35,857 bases of DNA from an uncultured Lachnospiraceae bacterium. GTDB lineage: Bacteria > Bacillota > Clostridia > Lachnospirales > Lachnospiraceae. The first letter of the stretch is position 1, and each line of letters begins with the position of its first letter. The notes under the pieces were generated by a model, which saw nothing but the letters and a program-made list of their open reading frames with translations, was not told the DNA's origin and did no database searches. Where the stretch lies: assembly GCA_947626795.1 (NCBI GenBank), contig CANQTH010000025.1, forward strand, positions 1 through 35,857, in the 5' to 3' direction. The position numbers were made by a program, and so were the translations under genes. This document shows, piece by piece, positions 11,232-20,151 of the stretch.

Positions 11232-11588
11232 ATGAGCTTAGGCATAGAGAATTTAAGCACTTATTACAATACGGACTACAATATGGAGACGAGTTCCGCA
11301 AGCAAATTGGAAGAGACGTTAAATTCCGATCTGTCTACGGCGACAGACGACGAATTGATGGACGTCTGCAAGGATTTCGAGGCATATTTCACGGAGCAGA
11401 TGTTCAAGGCGATGCGGCGGATGGTGCCGGAATCGGACGAAGAGGTGTCGGCTTCCACCAAACAGCTTCGGGATTATTACGAAGAGCAGATGATACAAAG
11501 CTATGCGGAGCAGTCCGCCGAAGGGGAAGGGCTTGGGATTGCGCAGATGCTGTATGAGCAGATGAAGCGCAATTATGGCATGGAATAA
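11232..11588 (+). CDS. flgJ: FlgJ N-terminal-type rod-binding protein
   Basis: A 118-residue protein matching only the rod-scaffolding domain of FlgJ (PF10135): VCKDFEAYFTEQMFKAMRRMVP at about 40-61 and a C-terminal GLGIAQMLYEQM helix. The peptidoglycan-hydrolase half found in proteobacterial FlgJ is absent, as in many Firmicutes, so a separate enzyme must open the wall for the rod. The N-terminal 35 residues are Ser/Thr/Asn-rich. AAGGAAGGAG (11215-11224) is a strong ribosome site. The last 14 bases overlap the recD2 start, so the flagellar gene is translationally coupled to a DNA helicase. The gene symbol is used for the family only. Confidence 0.85.
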   Translation: MSLGIENLSTYYNTDYNMETSSASKLEETLNSDLSTATDDELMDVCKDFEAYFTEQMFKAMRRMVPESDEEVSASTKQLRDYYEEQMIQSYAEQSAEGEGLGIAQMLYEQMKRNYGME

Positions 11589-13851
11589 AGACGTGGAGAC
11601 ATTGACAGGGTATGTGAGCCATATCGTGTACCAGAATACGGAAAACGGGTATATGGTATTGAATTTTGCCTGCGGGGAGGAAGAGATCACCTGCGTGGGG
11701 AATTTCCACGGGGTCAGCGAGGGCGAGAGCCTGGAGCTGGAAGGCGAGTATGCCAACCATCCTTCCTATGGGCGGCAATTCAAGATGCAGTCGTTCCGGG
11801 TGAAGCCCCCGGAAGACACGGAGTCCATGGAACGGTATCTGGGTTCCGGGGCGATCAAGGGGGTCGGAGCCGCGCTCGCCGCGCGGATCGTTAAGAAATT
11901 TAAGGAAGACACCTTCCGGATCATGGAAGAGGAGCCGGAGCGGCTGGCGGAGATCAAGGGGATCAGCGCGCGGAAGGCCATGGAGATCGCGGAGCAGGTG
12001 GAGGGGAAGCGCGAGATGCGCCAGGCGATGATCTTCCTGCAGCAGTACGGGATCTCCCAGACGCTGGCAGTCAAGATCTACCGCGCATACGGGCAGGAGA
12101 CTTACCATATTTTGAAAGAGAATCCGTACCGCTTGGCGGAGGACATCCAGGGCGTGGGGTTCCGGATCGCGGACGAGATCGCGTCGCGGGTCGGCATCCA
12201 TCCGGATTCTGATTTCCGCATTCGGAGCGGGATCTTGCACACGCTGCTTTTAGCGTCCCAGGAAGGCCACACCTGCCTGCCCATGGAGACGCTGACGAGG
12301 CGGGCGTGCGAGCTTTTGGGAACCTGCCCGGAAGATATGGAACAGCATTATAGGAACCTTGCCATAGACAAAAAGCTGATGATAAAGGAAATCGCGGGCA
12401 GCCGATATGTGTATATGGCAAGTTTTTATTATATGGAATCAAACACGGCATTTTTGTTAAAGCAGCTGGACGTCGCTTACAAAGCGCCGGAAGACGAGGT
12501 GATGGGCCGGATCCGGGCGATCGAGGAAGACACGGGCATGAAGCTGGACGGGCTGCAGGCGGAGGCCGTGAAGGAAGCGGTCGGGAACGGCCTGGTGATC
12601 ATCACAGGCGGGCCCGGGACCGGAAAGACGACGACCATCAATACGATCATCCGCTATTTTGAAATGGAGGGCATGGATATTTTCCTTGCGGCACCGACAG
12701 GGCGCGCCGCTAAGCGGATGAGCGAGACGACAGGGTTTGAGGCGCGCACGATACACCGGATGCTGGAGATCAACGGCGGCATGGAGGAGGATGGCGCGCC
12801 TTTTGGCGTATCCAAAACGGGCGAGGGAAGCCCGGATATGCGCTCGTCCGGGAGCGCGCGGTTCGAGCGCAACGAGCAGAACCCGTTGGAGGCGGACGTC
12901 GTCATCATCGACGAAGTTTCCATGGTTGACATCACGCTGATGCATTCCCTTTTGAAGGCCGTGGCCGCAGGGACGCGGCTGATCCTGGTCGGGGACGTGA
13001 ACCAACTGCCCAGCGTGGGGCCGGGGAGCGTATTGCGGGACATCATTGACTCCGGGCAGTTCCACGTCGTGCGCCTGACGAAGATCTTCCGCCAGGCGGC
13101 GCAGAGCGACATCATCGTGAACGCCCACAAGATCAACCGCGGGGAAGAGGTGGCGCTGGACAACAAGAGCATGGATTTCTTTTTCCTGAAGCGGTTCGAC
13201 GCGAATGTGATCATCAGCGTCATGCTGCAGCTCATCCAGAAGAAGCTGCCGAAATTCGTGGACGCGAAGCCGTATGACATCCAGGTGCTGACCCCGATGC
13301 GCAAGGGGCTTCTGGGCGTGGAGCGGCTGAACGGCATCTTGCAGCAGTACTTAAACCCGCCCGGGGACGGCAAGCGGGAGAAGGAGCATGGGGACGTTGT
13401 CTTCCGGGAGGGGGACAAGGTCATGCAGATCAAGAACAACTACCAGCTTGCCTGGGAGATCCGCAGCAGGTACGGGCTTGCCATTGACCGGGGGACGGGT
13501 ATTTTTAACGGGGATATGGGGACGATAAGCCATATAGACGCGTATCAGGAGATCCTGACGGTGGAGTTTGAGGAAGGGCGGATGGTGGAATATGCCTTTA
13601 AGCAGTTGGACGAGCTGGAGCTTGCCTATGCCGTCACGATCCACAAGTCCCAGGGGAGCGAGTACCCGGCCGTAGTCATCCCGCTGCTGTCAGGCCCGAA
13701 GATGCTGATGAACCGGAACCTCCTCTACACGGCGGTGACGCGGGCCAAAAAATGCGTCACGATCGTAGGTGACGACCGGACGTTCCGGGAGATGGAGGCG
13801 AATGTCAGCGAGCAGAAGCGTTACACAGGATTAAAAGGATTTATTGCATGA
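11575..13851 (+). CDS. recD2: ATP-dependent RecD2-like DNA helicase
   Basis: RecD2, a stand-alone 5'-3' superfamily-1B helicase of Gram-positive bacteria, not part of RecBCD, linked to mismatch and fork repair. 758 residues. An OB-like N-terminal region (about 8-75) is followed by helix-hairpin-helix motifs (GAIKGVGAALA, IQGVGFRIADEIA). Walker A is GGPGTGKT (345-352); the DEAD-like motif is VIIDEVSMVD; motif III is LVGDVNQLPSVGPG; the C-terminal UvrD-like module has AVTIHKSQGSEYP and YTAVTRAKK. It starts inside the FlgJ-like gene and its stop overlaps comF as ATGA, showing tight coupling across genes of unrelated function. Confidence 0.95.
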   Translation: MAWNKDVETLTGYVSHIVYQNTENGYMVLNFACGEEEITCVGNFHGVSEGESLELEGEYANHPSYGRQFKMQSFRVKPPEDTESMERYLGSGAIKGVGAALAARIVKKFKEDTFRIMEEEPERLAEIKGISARKAMEIAEQVEGKREMRQAMIFLQQYGISQTLAVKIYRAYGQETYHILKENPYRLAEDIQGVGFRIADEIASRVGIHPDSDFRIRSGILHTLLLASQEGHTCLPMETLTRRACELLGTCPEDMEQHYRNLAIDKKLMIKEIAGSRYVYMASFYYMESNTAFLLKQLDVAYKAPEDEVMGRIRAIEEDTGMKLDGLQAEAVKEAVGNGLVIITGGPGTGKTTTINTIIRYFEMEGMDIFLAAPTGRAAKRMSETTGFEARTIHRMLEINGGMEEDGAPFGVSKTGEGSPDMRSSGSARFERNEQNPLEADVVIIDEVSMVDITLMHSLLKAVAAGTRLILVGDVNQLPSVGPGSVLRDIIDSGQFHVVRLTKIFRQAAQSDIIVNAHKINRGEEVALDNKSMDFFFLKRFDANVIISVMLQLIQKKLPKFVDAKPYDIQVLTPMRKGLLGVERLNGILQQYLNPPGDGKREKEHGDVVFREGDKVMQIKNNYQLAWEIRSRYGLAIDRGTGIFNGDMGTISHIDAYQEILTVEFEEGRMVEYAFKQLDELELAYAVTIHKSQGSEYPAVVIPLLSGPKMLMNRNLLYTAVTRAKKCVTIVGDDRTFREMEANVSEQKRYTGLKGFIA

Positions 13852-15089: not shown

Positions 15090-15509
15090 ATGCTGAATGA
15101 AGAACGGATCCGGCTCATGACGAAAATGGCTTCTTATGAGGAAGGGGAAGGCAGGGAGCATATGCCGATCCGAAAATATTACCGGAAGGATTATGTCGGC
15201 TACGAGATGCTCAAGACGTTTTTCACCTCGACGGCGGCGTTCGGGATCTTGCTGGCGCTCTGGCTGATCTATAACATGGAAGGGCTGACGGCCTTGACGG
15301 ACACGGGAGATCTCGCGGATCTTGGTGGGCTGGCGCTCGCGGCCTACATCGGCTTTTGCGCAGTCTACCAGATCATCGCCTGCATCGTGTACAACCACCG
15401 TTACGCGAAGGCCGCCGCCGGCTTGAAAAAATACCAGGCCACCTTAAAGAAAGTGGAGAAGCTTCAGGAGAAGGAAGAAAAAGCGCAATCTTTGGAGGAA
15501 CGGAAATGA
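15090..15509 (+). CDS. Hypothetical two-helix membrane protein
   Basis: 139 residues, family not recognised. After a charged N-terminus there are two hydrophobic segments (about 42-64 and 82-108), then a highly charged, Lys/Glu-rich helix likely to form a coiled coil in the cytoplasm. The strong ribosome site AAAGGAGG (15072-15079) and the ATGA overlap with the next gene support it as real. It forms a coupled pair with the downstream polytopic membrane protein, directly before the c-di-AMP operon, so the two could act together at the membrane. No enzymatic motif was seen. Confidence 0.75.
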   Translation: MLNEERIRLMTKMASYEEGEGREHMPIRKYYRKDYVGYEMLKTFFTSTAAFGILLALWLIYNMEGLTALTDTGDLADLGGLALAAYIGFCAVYQIIACIVYNHRYAKAAAGLKKYQATLKKVEKLQEKEEKAQSLEERK

Positions 15510-16480
15510 CAGGTTTATTGGAGCTGCGGGAACGGCTGCGGAATTTTTATGGGAAATATGAGGTTTATGCGGTGGCGGGCATAAAATTCGCGCTTAGCCT
15601 GGCGGTGTTTTGCATGATCAACGCCAGGATGGGTTACATGGATCGGCTCGTCCATCCGGCACTGGCACTGCTCCTCGCGCTGGCCTGCGCGTTTTTCCCG
15701 GCGAATTTCATGGTGTTGGCGGGCAGCGCGCTGATCCTGGCGCATCTGTTCGCGCTGGCGCCGGAAGCCTGCGTGATCGGGCTGTGCCTGTTCCTGCTTC
15801 TGTTCTTCCTTTACCTGCGGTTCGCGTCCGGGAACGGATACAGCGTGGCCGTGACGTTTTTGCTGTGGTTTTTCCGGATCCCGCAGGTAATGCCCGTGGC
15901 GGTCGGCCTGCTAAAAGGCCCGTCCTCGTATCTGTCGGTCCTTTGCGGGACGACGGCGTTCTTCTATGTCCGGGACGTGCAGGAGAGCGTCGCAAGCTCC
16001 GCTGCGGGGGATGAAGAGACCCTTTCCAAGATGACGGCGGCCCTGCGGGCACTGACGGGGGATAAGGAGCTGTATCTCGTGCTTGCGGCGTTTTTGGCCA
16101 CGTCGCTGGTCGTTTATGTCATCCGCAGGAAGTCGGCCAACTATTCCTGGCGGATCGCCCTGCTCGTGGGGAATATGGTGGACCTGGCGATCCTGCTGGT
16201 GGGCTATATCCTCCTTGGGATGACGGAGAACGCGGCCTGGGCCGCTGTCGGGACGGCGGTTTCCGTGGCGGTTTCCCTGCTGCTGGAATTTCTCTTCCAT
16301 AACCTGGATTATTCCAGAGTGGAGCGGGTGCAGTTTGAGGACGATGAATATTATTACTATGTGAAGGCGGTCCCCAAGGCGTTCGTGGCACAGAAGGATA
16401 AGCGCGTCAAGAAGATCACGCCCGGGAAGCGGGCCGGGGGCAGCCGACAGGAGCCGACGGGCGAAGAGAGCCTGCTGTAG
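15506..16480 (+). CDS. Polytopic membrane protein, function unknown
   Basis: 324 residues with about nine hydrophobic segments between residues 19 and 265. The C-terminal cytoplasmic tail of about 60 residues contains an acidic-aromatic motif, VQFEDDEYYYYVKAVPK, followed by basic residues. The ATG at 15506 overlaps the stop of the preceding small membrane gene, with GGAGG just upstream; translation from further upstream in the same frame would read through that gene. cdaA begins 43 bases later. I do not recognise a named family. The position suggests a role in envelope physiology, and the unusual tail may be a docking site, but this is inference. Confidence 0.78.
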   Translation: MTGLLELRERLRNFYGKYEVYAVAGIKFALSLAVFCMINARMGYMDRLVHPALALLLALACAFFPANFMVLAGSALILAHLFALAPEACVIGLCLFLLLFFLYLRFASGNGYSVAVTFLLWFFRIPQVMPVAVGLLKGPSSYLSVLCGTTAFFYVRDVQESVASSAAGDEETLSKMTAALRALTGDKELYLVLAAFLATSLVVYVIRRKSANYSWRIALLVGNMVDLAILLVGYILLGMTENAAWAAVGTAVSVAVSLLLEFLFHNLDYSRVERVQFEDDEYYYYVKAVPKAFVAQKDKRVKKITPGKRAGGSRQEPTGEESLL

Positions 16481-16522: not shown

Positions 16523-17389
16523 ATGATGCAGAATCTATTCGCGACATTAAATTCGTTCGCGTCCAAATACCTGTTTTGGATCGACAGGCCGACGATCACA
16601 AAAATAGATATTGCGGAGATCATCATCATATCATTCCTGATCTACAGCATTTTGGTGTGGGTGAAGCAGACGAGGGCATGGAACCTGCTGAAGGGCATCA
16701 TCGTAGTGCTGGCTTTTGTGCTGCTCGCGGCGATGTTCCAGATGAACACGATCCTGTGGATCGCGGGGAAGAGCTTAAATATCCTGGTGATTGCCATTGT
16801 CGTCGTGTTCCAGCCGGAGCTGCGCCGGGCGTTAGAGCAGCTTGGGCAGAAGAATTTCATCACGTCGCTGTTCTCCTTCGACTCCCAGAAGAACCAGGAG
16901 CGGTTCAGCGAACGCATCGTCAACGAGATTACGAAGGCGACGTACGAGATGGCGAAGGTGAAGACCGGGGCGCTGATCGTGATCGAGCAGAACGTCGTGC
17001 TGGAGGAATACGAGCGGACGGGGATCGCCCTGGATTCCCTTGTGTCCAGCCAGCTTTTGATCAATATTTTCGAACATAATACGCCGCTGCACGACGGGGC
17101 GGTCATCCTGCGCGGGGAGCGGATCGTGTCCGCGACCTGCTACCTCCCGCTTTCCGACAACATGGAGCTGAGCAAGGAGCTTGGAACGAGGCACCGCGCG
17201 GCCGTGGGCATCAGCGAGGTGTGCGACGCCCTGGCGATCGGCGGCGAGCTGTACCGCAACGTGGACGCGGAGTATTTGAAGCGGAAGCTGAATTTCATCC
17301 GGAAAGGCGAGATCGACGTGGCGAGGTTTCGGATATGGAAAAGGAGGATGAAGAATGTTCAAGAAAATGATGAAGCATCTGGCAAATAA
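16523..17389 (+). CDS. cdaA: Diadenylate cyclase CdaA with an apparent internal deletion
   Basis: CdaA, the membrane-bound diadenylate cyclase that makes c-di-AMP from two ATP; c-di-AMP controls potassium uptake and wall homeostasis. 288 residues: three hydrophobic segments (about 30-46, 58-72, 77-96) then the DAC domain. DGA is present at 191-193 and RHR at 223-225. After EVCDAL (232-237) the sequence jumps directly to AIGGELYRNVDAEYLK, whereas family members have about a dozen more residues here, containing the conserved block usually reading VSEETG. The loss is in frame and may impair catalysis or metal binding. The conventional neighbours cdaR and glmM follow. The 3' end overlaps cdaR by 35 bases. 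Confidence 0.9.
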   Translation: MMQNLFATLNSFASKYLFWIDRPTITKIDIAEIIIISFLIYSILVWVKQTRAWNLLKGIIVVLAFVLLAAMFQMNTILWIAGKSLNILVIAIVVVFQPELRRALEQLGQKNFITSLFSFDSQKNQERFSERIVNEITKATYEMAKVKTGALIVIEQNVVLEEYERTGIALDSLVSSQLLINIFEHNTPLHDGAVILRGERIVSATCYLPLSDNMELSKELGTRHRAAVGISEVCDALAIGGELYRNVDAEYLKRKLNFIRKGEIDVARFRIWKRRMKNVQENDEASGK

Positions 17390-18752
17390 CCCAGGGCTGA
17401 AGCTTCTTTCCATCCTGTTCGCCATCGTGCTTTGGCTCGTCGTCGTCAACGTCGCCGACCCGGACATGACGAAGTCGTTTTCCGTCCCGGTCGAGATCCT
17501 GAATAAGGACGTCATCGCGGAGATGGGGAAAGTCCCGGATATCGTGGGGGACACGGATATCGCGGTGTTCTATATCACGGGACCGAGAAGCTATGTCGAG
17601 GATATGAGCGGCGACGATTTCAGCGTGACCGCGGACTTAAGTCAGATCGACCTGAGCCAGGAAGGGGAGCAGAAGCTTGTCCCGATCGAGGTCGTGGCAA
17701 AGAAGAACGACCGGAAGATCGACATCATACGGAAGACCGTCAATATGCAGATCACGCTGGAGGATCTGTCCGAGAAGAAATTCATCATTTCGGCCGAGAC
17801 GACCGGGACCCCGGCGGAAGGCTGCGCCATCGGAGAGGTCGAGGTCACGCCGAACCTCCTGACGGTCTCGGGGCCGGAGACGGTCGTATCGCGCATCAGC
17901 CGCGTGACGGCGAGCATCAACGTGGACGGGATCTCCAGCGATGTGTCGGACAGTGTGATCCCGACGCTGTATGACGAGGAAGAGAATGTCGTCTCCTCGG
18001 ATATGCTGGACATGAATCGGGAGGCAGTCACGATCCGGGCGAATATCCTGGCGACGAAGAAAGTGCCTGTGCGGTTCCAGGTAAGCGGGACTCCGGCGGA
18101 CGGCTATGTCTGCCAGGGGCTGGAATATGCGCCGGAGAACGTCCAGATCAAGGGCGAGGCGGACGTTTTGAACGCCATCAGCGCCATCGACGTCCCGGCA
18201 GGCGTCATCGACGTGACCGGGGCGACGAAGGACATGGATTTTACGGTGGACATTACGCCGTACCTGCGGGACGACGATGTCCTTTTGACGGACGAGTCGG
18301 AGAACAAGATCGCGGTCAAGGCCCTGATCGTGCAAAAAGCGGTGAAGACGTTCAATATCCCGACGAGCCAGGTGGAGGTCACGGGCCTGGACGATGCGGC
18401 GTACCGCCTCTCGTTTAACGGAAATACGATCCCCGTCACAGTGCGGGCGCTGCAGGAGGACATGGAGAGCCTGCGGGCGGAGGACATTGCGGTGGCGCTC
18501 GATGTGTCCGGGATGGCGGCGGGCGCGCATTCCGTGGAGCTTTCCGTGACGCTGCCGGGGACGCAGTACGAGCTGGCCGGGGACGTTTCCGCGCAGGTGG
18601 TGATCGCGGCCCGCAGGGAAGTGCTGGGCGCGGGCGACAGCCCTGTGTCCGGCAATGCGCAGGACGGCTCCGCCGGAGATACGGACGGCGACGCGCAGGA
18701 CGGCCCCGCCGGGGATACGGGCGGCGACGCGCAGGAGGAAGACGGGGAATGA
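17355..18752 (+). CDS. cdaR: YbbR-domain protein CdaR, regulator of CdaA
   Basis: CdaR (YbbR), a single-pass membrane protein that binds CdaA and tunes c-di-AMP synthesis. 465 residues. One N-terminal helix (about 16-34, LKLLSILFAIVLWLVVVNV) anchors it, and the rest is extracytoplasmic. Four YbbR-like beta domains follow; recurring motifs are SVPVEI, GTPAEGCAIGEVEVTPN, GTPADGYVCQGLEYAPENV and PTSQVEVTGL. The tail from about 435 is a low-complexity acidic repeat (AQDG-AGDT-GD), unusual for the family. AAGGAGG (17341-17347) lies inside cdaA, so the two are translationally coupled. glmM follows, giving the standard cdaA-cdaR-glmM operon. Confidence 0.93.
   Translation: MFKKMMKHLANNPGLKLLSILFAIVLWLVVVNVADPDMTKSFSVPVEILNKDVIAEMGKVPDIVGDTDIAVFYITGPRSYVEDMSGDDFSVTADLSQIDLSQEGEQKLVPIEVVAKKNDRKIDIIRKTVNMQITLEDLSEKKFIISAETTGTPAEGCAIGEVEVTPNLLTVSGPETVVSRISRVTASINVDGISSDVSDSVIPTLYDEEENVVSSDMLDMNREAVTIRANILATKKVPVRFQVSGTPADGYVCQGLEYAPENVQIKGEADVLNAISAIDVPAGVIDVTGATKDMDFTVDITPYLRDDDVLLTDESENKIAVKALIVQKAVKTFNIPTSQVEVTGLDDAAYRLSFNGNTIPVTVRALQEDMESLRAEDIAVALDVSGMAAGAHSVELSVTLPGTQYELAGDVSAQVVIAARREVLGAGDSPVSGNAQDGSAGDTDGDAQDGPAGDTGGDAQEEDGE
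18657..18735 (+). repeat. 36-bp in-frame tandem repeat in cdaR
   Basis: Two copies start at 18657 and 18693, each opening GCGCAGGACGGC, with a third partial copy from 18729. They encode the 12-residue unit AQDG(S/P)AGDT(D/G)GD in the acidic tail of CdaR. A period divisible by three keeps the frame, so copy number could vary between strains. Confidence 0.8.
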
Positions 18753-18801: not shown

Positions 18802-20151
18802 ATGGCAAGGATGTTTGGGACAGACGGCGTAAGGGGCGTCGCGGGGACGGAGCTTACGATCGGGCTGGCAATGGAGCTGGGGCAGGCGGGTGCGTACGTC
18901 CTGACGAAAGAGACGGCGCATCAGCCGACGATCATTGTGGGCTGCGACACCAGGATCTCCGGAGGGATGCTGGCGAACGCATTGATGGCGGGAATCTGCT
19001 CCGTCGGGGCGAACGCCGTATATATGGGCGTGCTGCCCACGCCCGCAGTCGCTTATTTAGTCAGGAAGCACAAGGTGGAAGCGGGGGTTGTGATCTCGGC
19101 TTCCCACAACCCGATGGAATTTAACGGGATCAAGTTTTTTAACGGGGAAGGCTATAAGCTTTCAGACAGCCTGGAAGATGAGATAGAGGCGTTGATCAAG
19201 AACGGCATGAAGGACGTCCCGATGCCGCTCGGGAGCGGGATCGGGAGCATAAGCTATCGGTTCGACGCGCGGGAAGAATATGTGTTTTTCATGAAGAAGA
19301 CGGTTCCGGTGGATCTGGGCAGCTTAAAGATCGTCGTGGATTGCGCGGAGGGCGCGTCCCATTACACGGCGGTCGAGACGCTGCGCGGGCTGGGCGCGAA
19401 CCTGGTGGCGATCCATACGAATCCGGACGGGCGCAACATCAACGCCAATTGCGGGTCCACCCATATGGATGAGCTGCGCGCCCGGGTCGTGTACGAGAAA
19501 GCGGACGTCGGGATCGCGTTCGACGGGGACGCCGACCGTATGCTCGCCGTGGATGAAAAGGGCAATATCGTGGACGGCGACCAGATCATGGCGGTCATCG
19601 GCAATTACATGAAGGAAAAGGGGACGCTGAAAAAGGACACGATCGTGGGGACGGTTATGAGCAACTTAGGATTCACGATAATGGGGAAAGAGCGCGGCAT
19701 CCACATTGAGCAGACGAAAGTCGGCGACCGCTACGTCCTGGAGAATATGCGGGAGAACGGGTACAACATCGGCGGGGAGCAGTCCGGGCATATCATCTTC
19801 TTGGATGAGAATACGACGGGCGACGGGCTTTTGAGCGCGCTGCACCTGCTCCAGGTCATGGTGGAGACGGGGAAGCCGCTTTCGGAGCTGGCGCAGATCA
19901 TGGAGGTCCTGCCGCAGTCGCTGGTCAACGCAAAAGTGCCGAACCACAAGAAAGAGCATTTTATGGAATATCCGGAGATCGCGCAGGCGATCCAGAAACT
20001 GGAAGAGAAATTCGCGGGAGAAGGAAGGGTCTTGATCCGCCCGTCCGGGACAGAGCCGCTGGTACGCGTCATGATCGAGGGGAAGGATCAGGAAATGATC
20101 ACCCGGGACGCAAGGGAGCTGGCGGATCTGATCATGAAGAATATGTTATGA
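18802..20151 (+). CDS. glmM: Phosphoglucosamine mutase
   Basis: GlmM converts glucosamine-6-phosphate to glucosamine-1-phosphate, feeding UDP-GlcNAc and peptidoglycan synthesis. 449 residues, the family norm. It begins MARMFGTDGVRG; the phosphoserine loop ISASHNP holds S101; the Mg-binding loop FDGDADRM is at about 241-248; the substrate loop GEQSGH and the phosphate-binding RPSGTEPLVRV near the C-terminus are intact. It is the last gene of the cdaA-cdaR-glmM set, where GlmM is known to bind and inhibit CdaA, coupling precursor supply to c-di-AMP. The upstream gap (18753-18801) contains GCCTGGGGCTGTTAC, a fragment resembling the tail of the dispersed hairpin repeat. Confidence 0.97.
   Translation: MARMFGTDGVRGVAGTELTIGLAMELGQAGAYVLTKETAHQPTIIVGCDTRISGGMLANALMAGICSVGANAVYMGVLPTPAVAYLVRKHKVEAGVVISASHNPMEFNGIKFFNGEGYKLSDSLEDEIEALIKNGMKDVPMPLGSGIGSISYRFDAREEYVFFMKKTVPVDLGSLKIVVDCAEGASHYTAVETLRGLGANLVAIHTNPDGRNINANCGSTHMDELRARVVYEKADVGIAFDGDADRMLAVDEKGNIVDGDQIMAVIGNYMKEKGTLKKDTIVGTVMSNLGFTIMGKERGIHIEQTKVGDRYVLENMRENGYNIGGEQSGHIIFLDENTTGDGLLSALHLLQVMVETGKPLSELAQIMEVLPQSLVNAKVPNHKKEHFMEYPEIAQAIQKLEEKFAGEGRVLIRPSGTEPLVRVMIEGKDQEMITRDARELADLIMKNML

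Follow-up and report, generated by a model that had tools for sequence, protein, structure and literature searches.

The shortened cdaA gene lies on a 35,857-nucleotide stretch of DNA, referred to here as the window, which is the whole of contig C25 in the draft genome of an uncultured Lachnospiraceae bacterium (2.89 Mb, 144 contigs, 96.25% complete). The gene is part of an operon with cdaR and glmM, and the relevant features are as follows:

16523..17389, + strand: cdaA, shortened diadenylate cyclase gene (open reading frame, in frame, 288 amino acids; TIGR00159, Pfam CdaA_N and DAC)
17093..17101, + strand: DGA motif, residues 191–193, intact (invariant columns D191, G192 and A193)
17189..17197, + strand: RHR motif, residues 223–225, intact (invariant columns R223, H224 and R225)
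between 17233 and 17234, + strand: deletion junction, where alignment to congeners places an absent 39 nucleotides (13 codons) with the (V/I)SEE block
17355..18752, + strand: cdaR, YbbR-domain regulator (Pfam YbbR), whose first 35 nucleotides are shared with the end of cdaA
18802..20151, + strand: glmM, intact phosphoglucosamine mutase (TIGR01455, 582.7 bits; cut-off 447.55)

The cdaA product scored 211.7 bits against TIGR00159, the NCBIfam equivalog for CdaA (cut-off 188.8), and 30.2 bits against the N-terminal transmembrane domain CdaA_N (PF19293; cut-off 23.8), and its Pfam DAC match reaches no further than model position 102 of 119. Like CdaA/DacA proteins (TIGR00159; PDB 4RV7, 6HVL, 6GYW, 8OGK), it combines an N-terminal transmembrane domain with a DAC domain, contains GALI, DGA and RHR motifs and is encoded in a cdaA-cdaR-glmM operon. 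Unlike them, it lacks 13 residues that include the (V/I)SEE motif – one mark of CdaA membership – and its core is predicted to be perturbed. The DAC domain is also common to the other DAC classes, DisA, CdaS and CdaM, which gave weak NCBIfam matches, but the window gene falls far below their cut-offs. Judged by its sequence, the gene is a cdaA orthologue by descent, which we do not call a working cyclase.

The original prediction held that this cdaA lacks a catalytic-domain block of about a dozen residues, with the DGA and RHR motifs intact, the frame kept and both flanks normal. Alignment to 28 congeneric genomes bore out each of these points and set the loss at exactly 13 residues (39 nucleotides, in frame; TIVVSEETGNVSI-like in congeners). 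All 28 congeners read ISEV[CS]DAL-T[IV]VVSEE[TN]GNVS[IL]-A[IV]GG, whereas the window reads ISEVCDAL-AIGG, with position 17233 ending Leu237 (CTG) and position 17234 starting Ala238 (GCG). VSEE[TN]G follows the RHR motif in every one of 108 loci examined – the 28 congeners and the 80 best-matching of 589 loci in a one-genome-per-species collection, several of which are the same contigs under two identifiers and overlap the congeners. The short form, which had been named as a possible refutation if present in close relatives with proven activity, occurs in 0 of 28 congeners. The congeners, from a genus inferred to include Petralouisia muris and Eubacterium sp. 14-2, encode CdaA proteins 84–88% identical to the window protein and share its 35-nucleotide cdaR overlap, but all 28 carry the block. 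The 39-nucleotide in-frame deletion is thus private to the window genome among the genomes compared.

To place this gap against a background, we aligned 17 of the 19 window genes (two had too few sequences) across up to 29 genomes, outgroup excluded, for 120,449 residues in all. Private gaps were defined as internal, at least 3 residues long and filled in at least 90% of the other sequences. Five were found, among which the cdaA gap (13 amino acids, mean column conservation 0.95) is the longest within a well conserved stretch and the only one with at least 5 residues in columns conserved above 0.9. The sole longer private gap, of 19 amino acids, lies close to the beginning of a different gene of a 63%-complete genome (G010), in columns of conservation 0.72.

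We observed other length differences within the window. The membrane-protein gene upstream of cdaA (15503–16480) lacks a conserved 4-residue piece near its C-terminus (16440–16480), and its C-terminal tail diverges from those of congeners. A RecD2-type helicase gene (11575–13851) carries a 21-amino-acid insertion that is not in the 25 congener sequences covering the site (25 of 26 rows).

Work on L. monocytogenes CdaA assigns binding of the ATP phosphates to the Ser and first Glu of (V/I)SEE and binding of a metal ion to its second Glu (PMC7288161), and an account of Leptospira CdaA names SEET as cation-coordinating (PMC12974146). The latter source also reports that D172A and R203A abolish activity, and that S222A, a Ser-to-Ala replacement within SEET, leaves about half of it – loss of this Ser alone is therefore not fatal. 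All 56 aligned relatives keep the V, S, E, E and G of the block unchanged. Mapped onto a model of an intact congener, the deletion would remove the greater part of two strands along with the turn that joins them.

Consistent with such a loss, an AlphaFold2 model of the short form (57 rows) had a mean pLDDT of 66.1, with values below 50 over residues 213–234, the region of the RHR helix; successive 10-residue blocks over residues 211–240 scored 48, 38 and 45. An intact congener protein (L032) modelled with the same relatives had a mean pLDDT of 76.0 and scored 68, 84 and 87 over these blocks. Comparison with solved DAC structures, a check proposed with the original prediction, was run with Foldseek: among the 50 matches listed, the short form matched CdaA structures with a target TM score of 0.61–0.74 and an rmsd of 3.6–6.5 Å, against 0.78–0.92 and 1.3–3.6 Å for the intact control. 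The deletion is thus predicted to perturb the DAC core. With an active-site motif lost and the modelled core perturbed, the encoded enzyme probably lacks activity, as had been suggested.

The suggestion that the organism may depend on DisA or another cyclase fared less well. A search of its own genome for a second DAC gene gave one match only (Pfam DAC, E ≤ 0.001). Each of the 28 congeners likewise had a single match with the window protein as query, and 383 of the 387 DAC-bearing genomes in a family-wide sample have a single DAC match; two of the other four reflect one gene split at contig ends. An intact DAC gene that lets the window copy decay would have to lie in the small part of the genome missing from the assembly. 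A completeness short of 100% leaves room for one, but the single matches throughout the genus and nearly throughout the family sample make this highly improbable, and with only one DAC gene in a 96%-complete genome the idea of a back-up cyclase is unsupported.

The rest of the operon, by comparison, is as anticipated: the 35-nucleotide cdaA-cdaR overlap is found in 29 of 29 genomes, the window included, and glmM scores above its cut-off. The third-position G+C of glmM (18802–20151) is 0.80, a strong within-genus shift from the 0.29–0.66 of congeners, some of whose genes are partial.

Elsewhere in the genome, we found an intact GdpP with GGDEF, DHH and DHHA1 domains in a 713-amino-acid frame. 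The GdpP domain is present in 29 of 29 genus genomes, the GGDEF score of the window genome being the lowest (97.2 bits, against 99.4–110.2). RCK_C is also present in all 29, with three matches in the window genome and two to five in congeners. The c-di-AMP riboswitch RF00379 is absent from the window genome and from 29 of 29 genus genomes, and its absence is therefore uninformative about this one. PstA (PF06153) was searched for in the window genome alone, where it is absent, and PF07698 (PgpH-type) gave weak matches in 3 of 29 genus genomes, none of them in the window genome. No decay of the c-di-AMP pathway particular to this genome was seen.

We also looked for relaxed selection on the remainder of the gene. 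Private changes at otherwise invariant columns number 1 of 81 in the DAC domain outside the block, 1 of 25 after the junction, 2 of 59 in the N-terminal part and 1 of 197 in glmM. The DAC-domain count is matched by several congeners, and the window ranks second to third of 29 for private changes in cdaA segments, tied or nearly tied with congeners that also have one. Over the DAC segment the window protein differs from congeners by 8.3–11.9% of amino acids (mean 9.9%), and congener pairs differ by a mean of 8.1% and a maximum of 14.7%. With both measures within the congener range, relaxed selection on the rest of the DAC domain is not clearly seen. At fourfold sites of the same segment, about 65% differ from congeners; the deletion therefore cannot be dated. 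In a nucleotide tree the window groups with G001, G008 and G018, a grouping that does not appear in the protein tree.

Amino-acid differences within the congener range, set beside so many fourfold differences, make prolonged neutral decay from the time the species diverged very unlikely on these alignments. A conserved gene with intact neighbours and no pathway decay instead points to a very recent deletion, an assembly error or a protein under selection, and as read from sequence the selection data do not choose among the three.

A slip between two short CGATC-like repeats had been put forward as a way to produce the deletion. In congeners the deletion edges form imperfect repeats, identical at 4–8 of 12 nucleotides with a longest exact run of 1–6, the edge codons being mostly ACN ATH GTN GTN on the left and GCN ATH GGN GGN on the right. 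Such look-alikes make slippage between the edges possible, and we consider it plausible from the congener sequences. The details fit less well, as the junction codon GCG agrees with the right-hand copy at every base and the window no longer contains the supposed left-hand repeat. Had the left codon been Thr, as it is in all 28 congeners, there would be no exact homology at the first base of the junction.

The same junction bears on whether the deletion exists in the organism at all. The main rival to a real, recent loss is an assembly, library or consensus error, in which the organism carries a full-length cdaA and the 39 nucleotides dropped out during sequencing, through bubble collapse or at gap closing. 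The genome is a draft of 144 contigs, the gene is otherwise constrained with no pathway decay, as expected of a working gene, and assembly errors are known to give rise to false pseudogenes (PMC11017572). Against an error are the clean in-frame junction, which chance would give one time in three, and the lack of any comparable gap of more than 4 residues in the other 16 aligned genes of the window. The longest run of identical bases between the congener edges, moreover, is 6 over the 12 nucleotides compared, and the usual word lengths of assemblers far exceed this. An error is possible, and we hold it to be somewhat doubtful.

We favor a real, recent loss-of-function allele – a 39-nucleotide in-frame deletion in the only DAC gene found – and give this reading a probability of about 0.5. 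Under a real loss, the deletion would remove the strand-turn-strand that carries the (V/I)SEE motif, so that the short protein should lose its grip on the ATP phosphates and the metal, its DAC core should not fold properly and little or no c-di-AMP should be made. Ribosomes would still reach the end of cdaA, and cdaR and glmM would still be expressed, because the deletion is in frame and cdaA overlaps cdaR by 35 nucleotides. An in-frame loss is in keeping with selection for cdaR-glmM expression, though a third of random deletions would be in frame anyway. Whether such a cell could live is a further point. Reports describe c-di-AMP as essential for growth in several Firmicutes (PMC7288161), and in S. 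aureus dacA is reported to be dispensable, with mutants growing under anaerobic conditions (PMC5836111). A cyclase-null gut anaerobe is conceivable on the strength of those mutants.

Several observations weigh against a recent loss. The deletion is known from a single assembly, the rest of the DAC domain is without clear relaxation, GdpP and RCK_C are kept and replacing the SEET Ser leaves about half the activity in Leptospira CdaA. Genomes without any DAC are also rare, numbering 2 among 320 good ones in the family sample and 15 of 384 in the class sample.

Continued conservation could also mean that the short protein is real, catalytically dead or weakly active, and retained for a scaffold role at the membrane, binding CdaR and GlmM. 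Consistent with this, CdaA is reported to bind GlmM and YbbR (PMC8573169, PMC6368335), the operon layout is unchanged and conservation of the remaining gene is close to that in congeners. Recency or error would give the same conservation, however, and the short form occurs in no other genome compared, its predicted core is perturbed and GdpP would be left without a substrate. We regard a retained scaffold as unlikely. We would be similarly surprised by the broader picture of a cyclase-dead CdaA under selection in a gut anaerobe that has no or very little c-di-AMP and keeps GdpP and RCK_C receptors.

If the deletion is real, as a recent loss of function would have it, the organism offers a natural test of a gut anaerobe doing without c-di-AMP, and also of a non-catalytic role of CdaA with GlmM and CdaR. 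Should it prove to be an error, it would serve as a reminder that loss of an active site in one assembly needs reads first.

Wider samples were searched for other short forms. A DAC match was present in 387 of 397 genomes of the family sample, the window genome included (318 of 320 good genomes), and in 377 of 392 genomes of a class sample restricted to genomes at least 95% complete. Among the matches listed for the family, four of the five lowest scorers (G092, G249, G277 and G330) are truncated by contig ends, as inferred from match places and locus lengths; the fifth, G253, covers DAC model positions 2–118, and its motif was not picked up by the search patterns. Among those listed for the class, the 18 low scorers followed up all reach model position 117 or 118 and show SEE[TR]. 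No second short-form cdaA was found among these low scorers (5 family, 18 class), to which one-by-one motif reading was confined; similar low scorers, largely of the same genus (g399), and higher scorers lay outside it. The open-licence literature, mostly at the level of titles and abstracts, yielded no report of a natural CdaA without the SEET block.

Two further observations were made. Thirteen of the 15 DAC-less genomes in the class sample come from a single family (f29), whose genomes are small (0.8–1.3 Mb) and which seems to get by with no diadenylate cyclase at all. In several Clostridia families (f58, f44, f93 and f98), the DAC domain lies within a long open frame, of 450–533 amino acids at L165, L166, L168 and L170–L180. 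A domain scan of one of these loci, L177 (positions 1060–2562; G492), identified CdaA_N, DAC and YbbR in a single 500-amino-acid protein – a natural CdaA-CdaR fusion.
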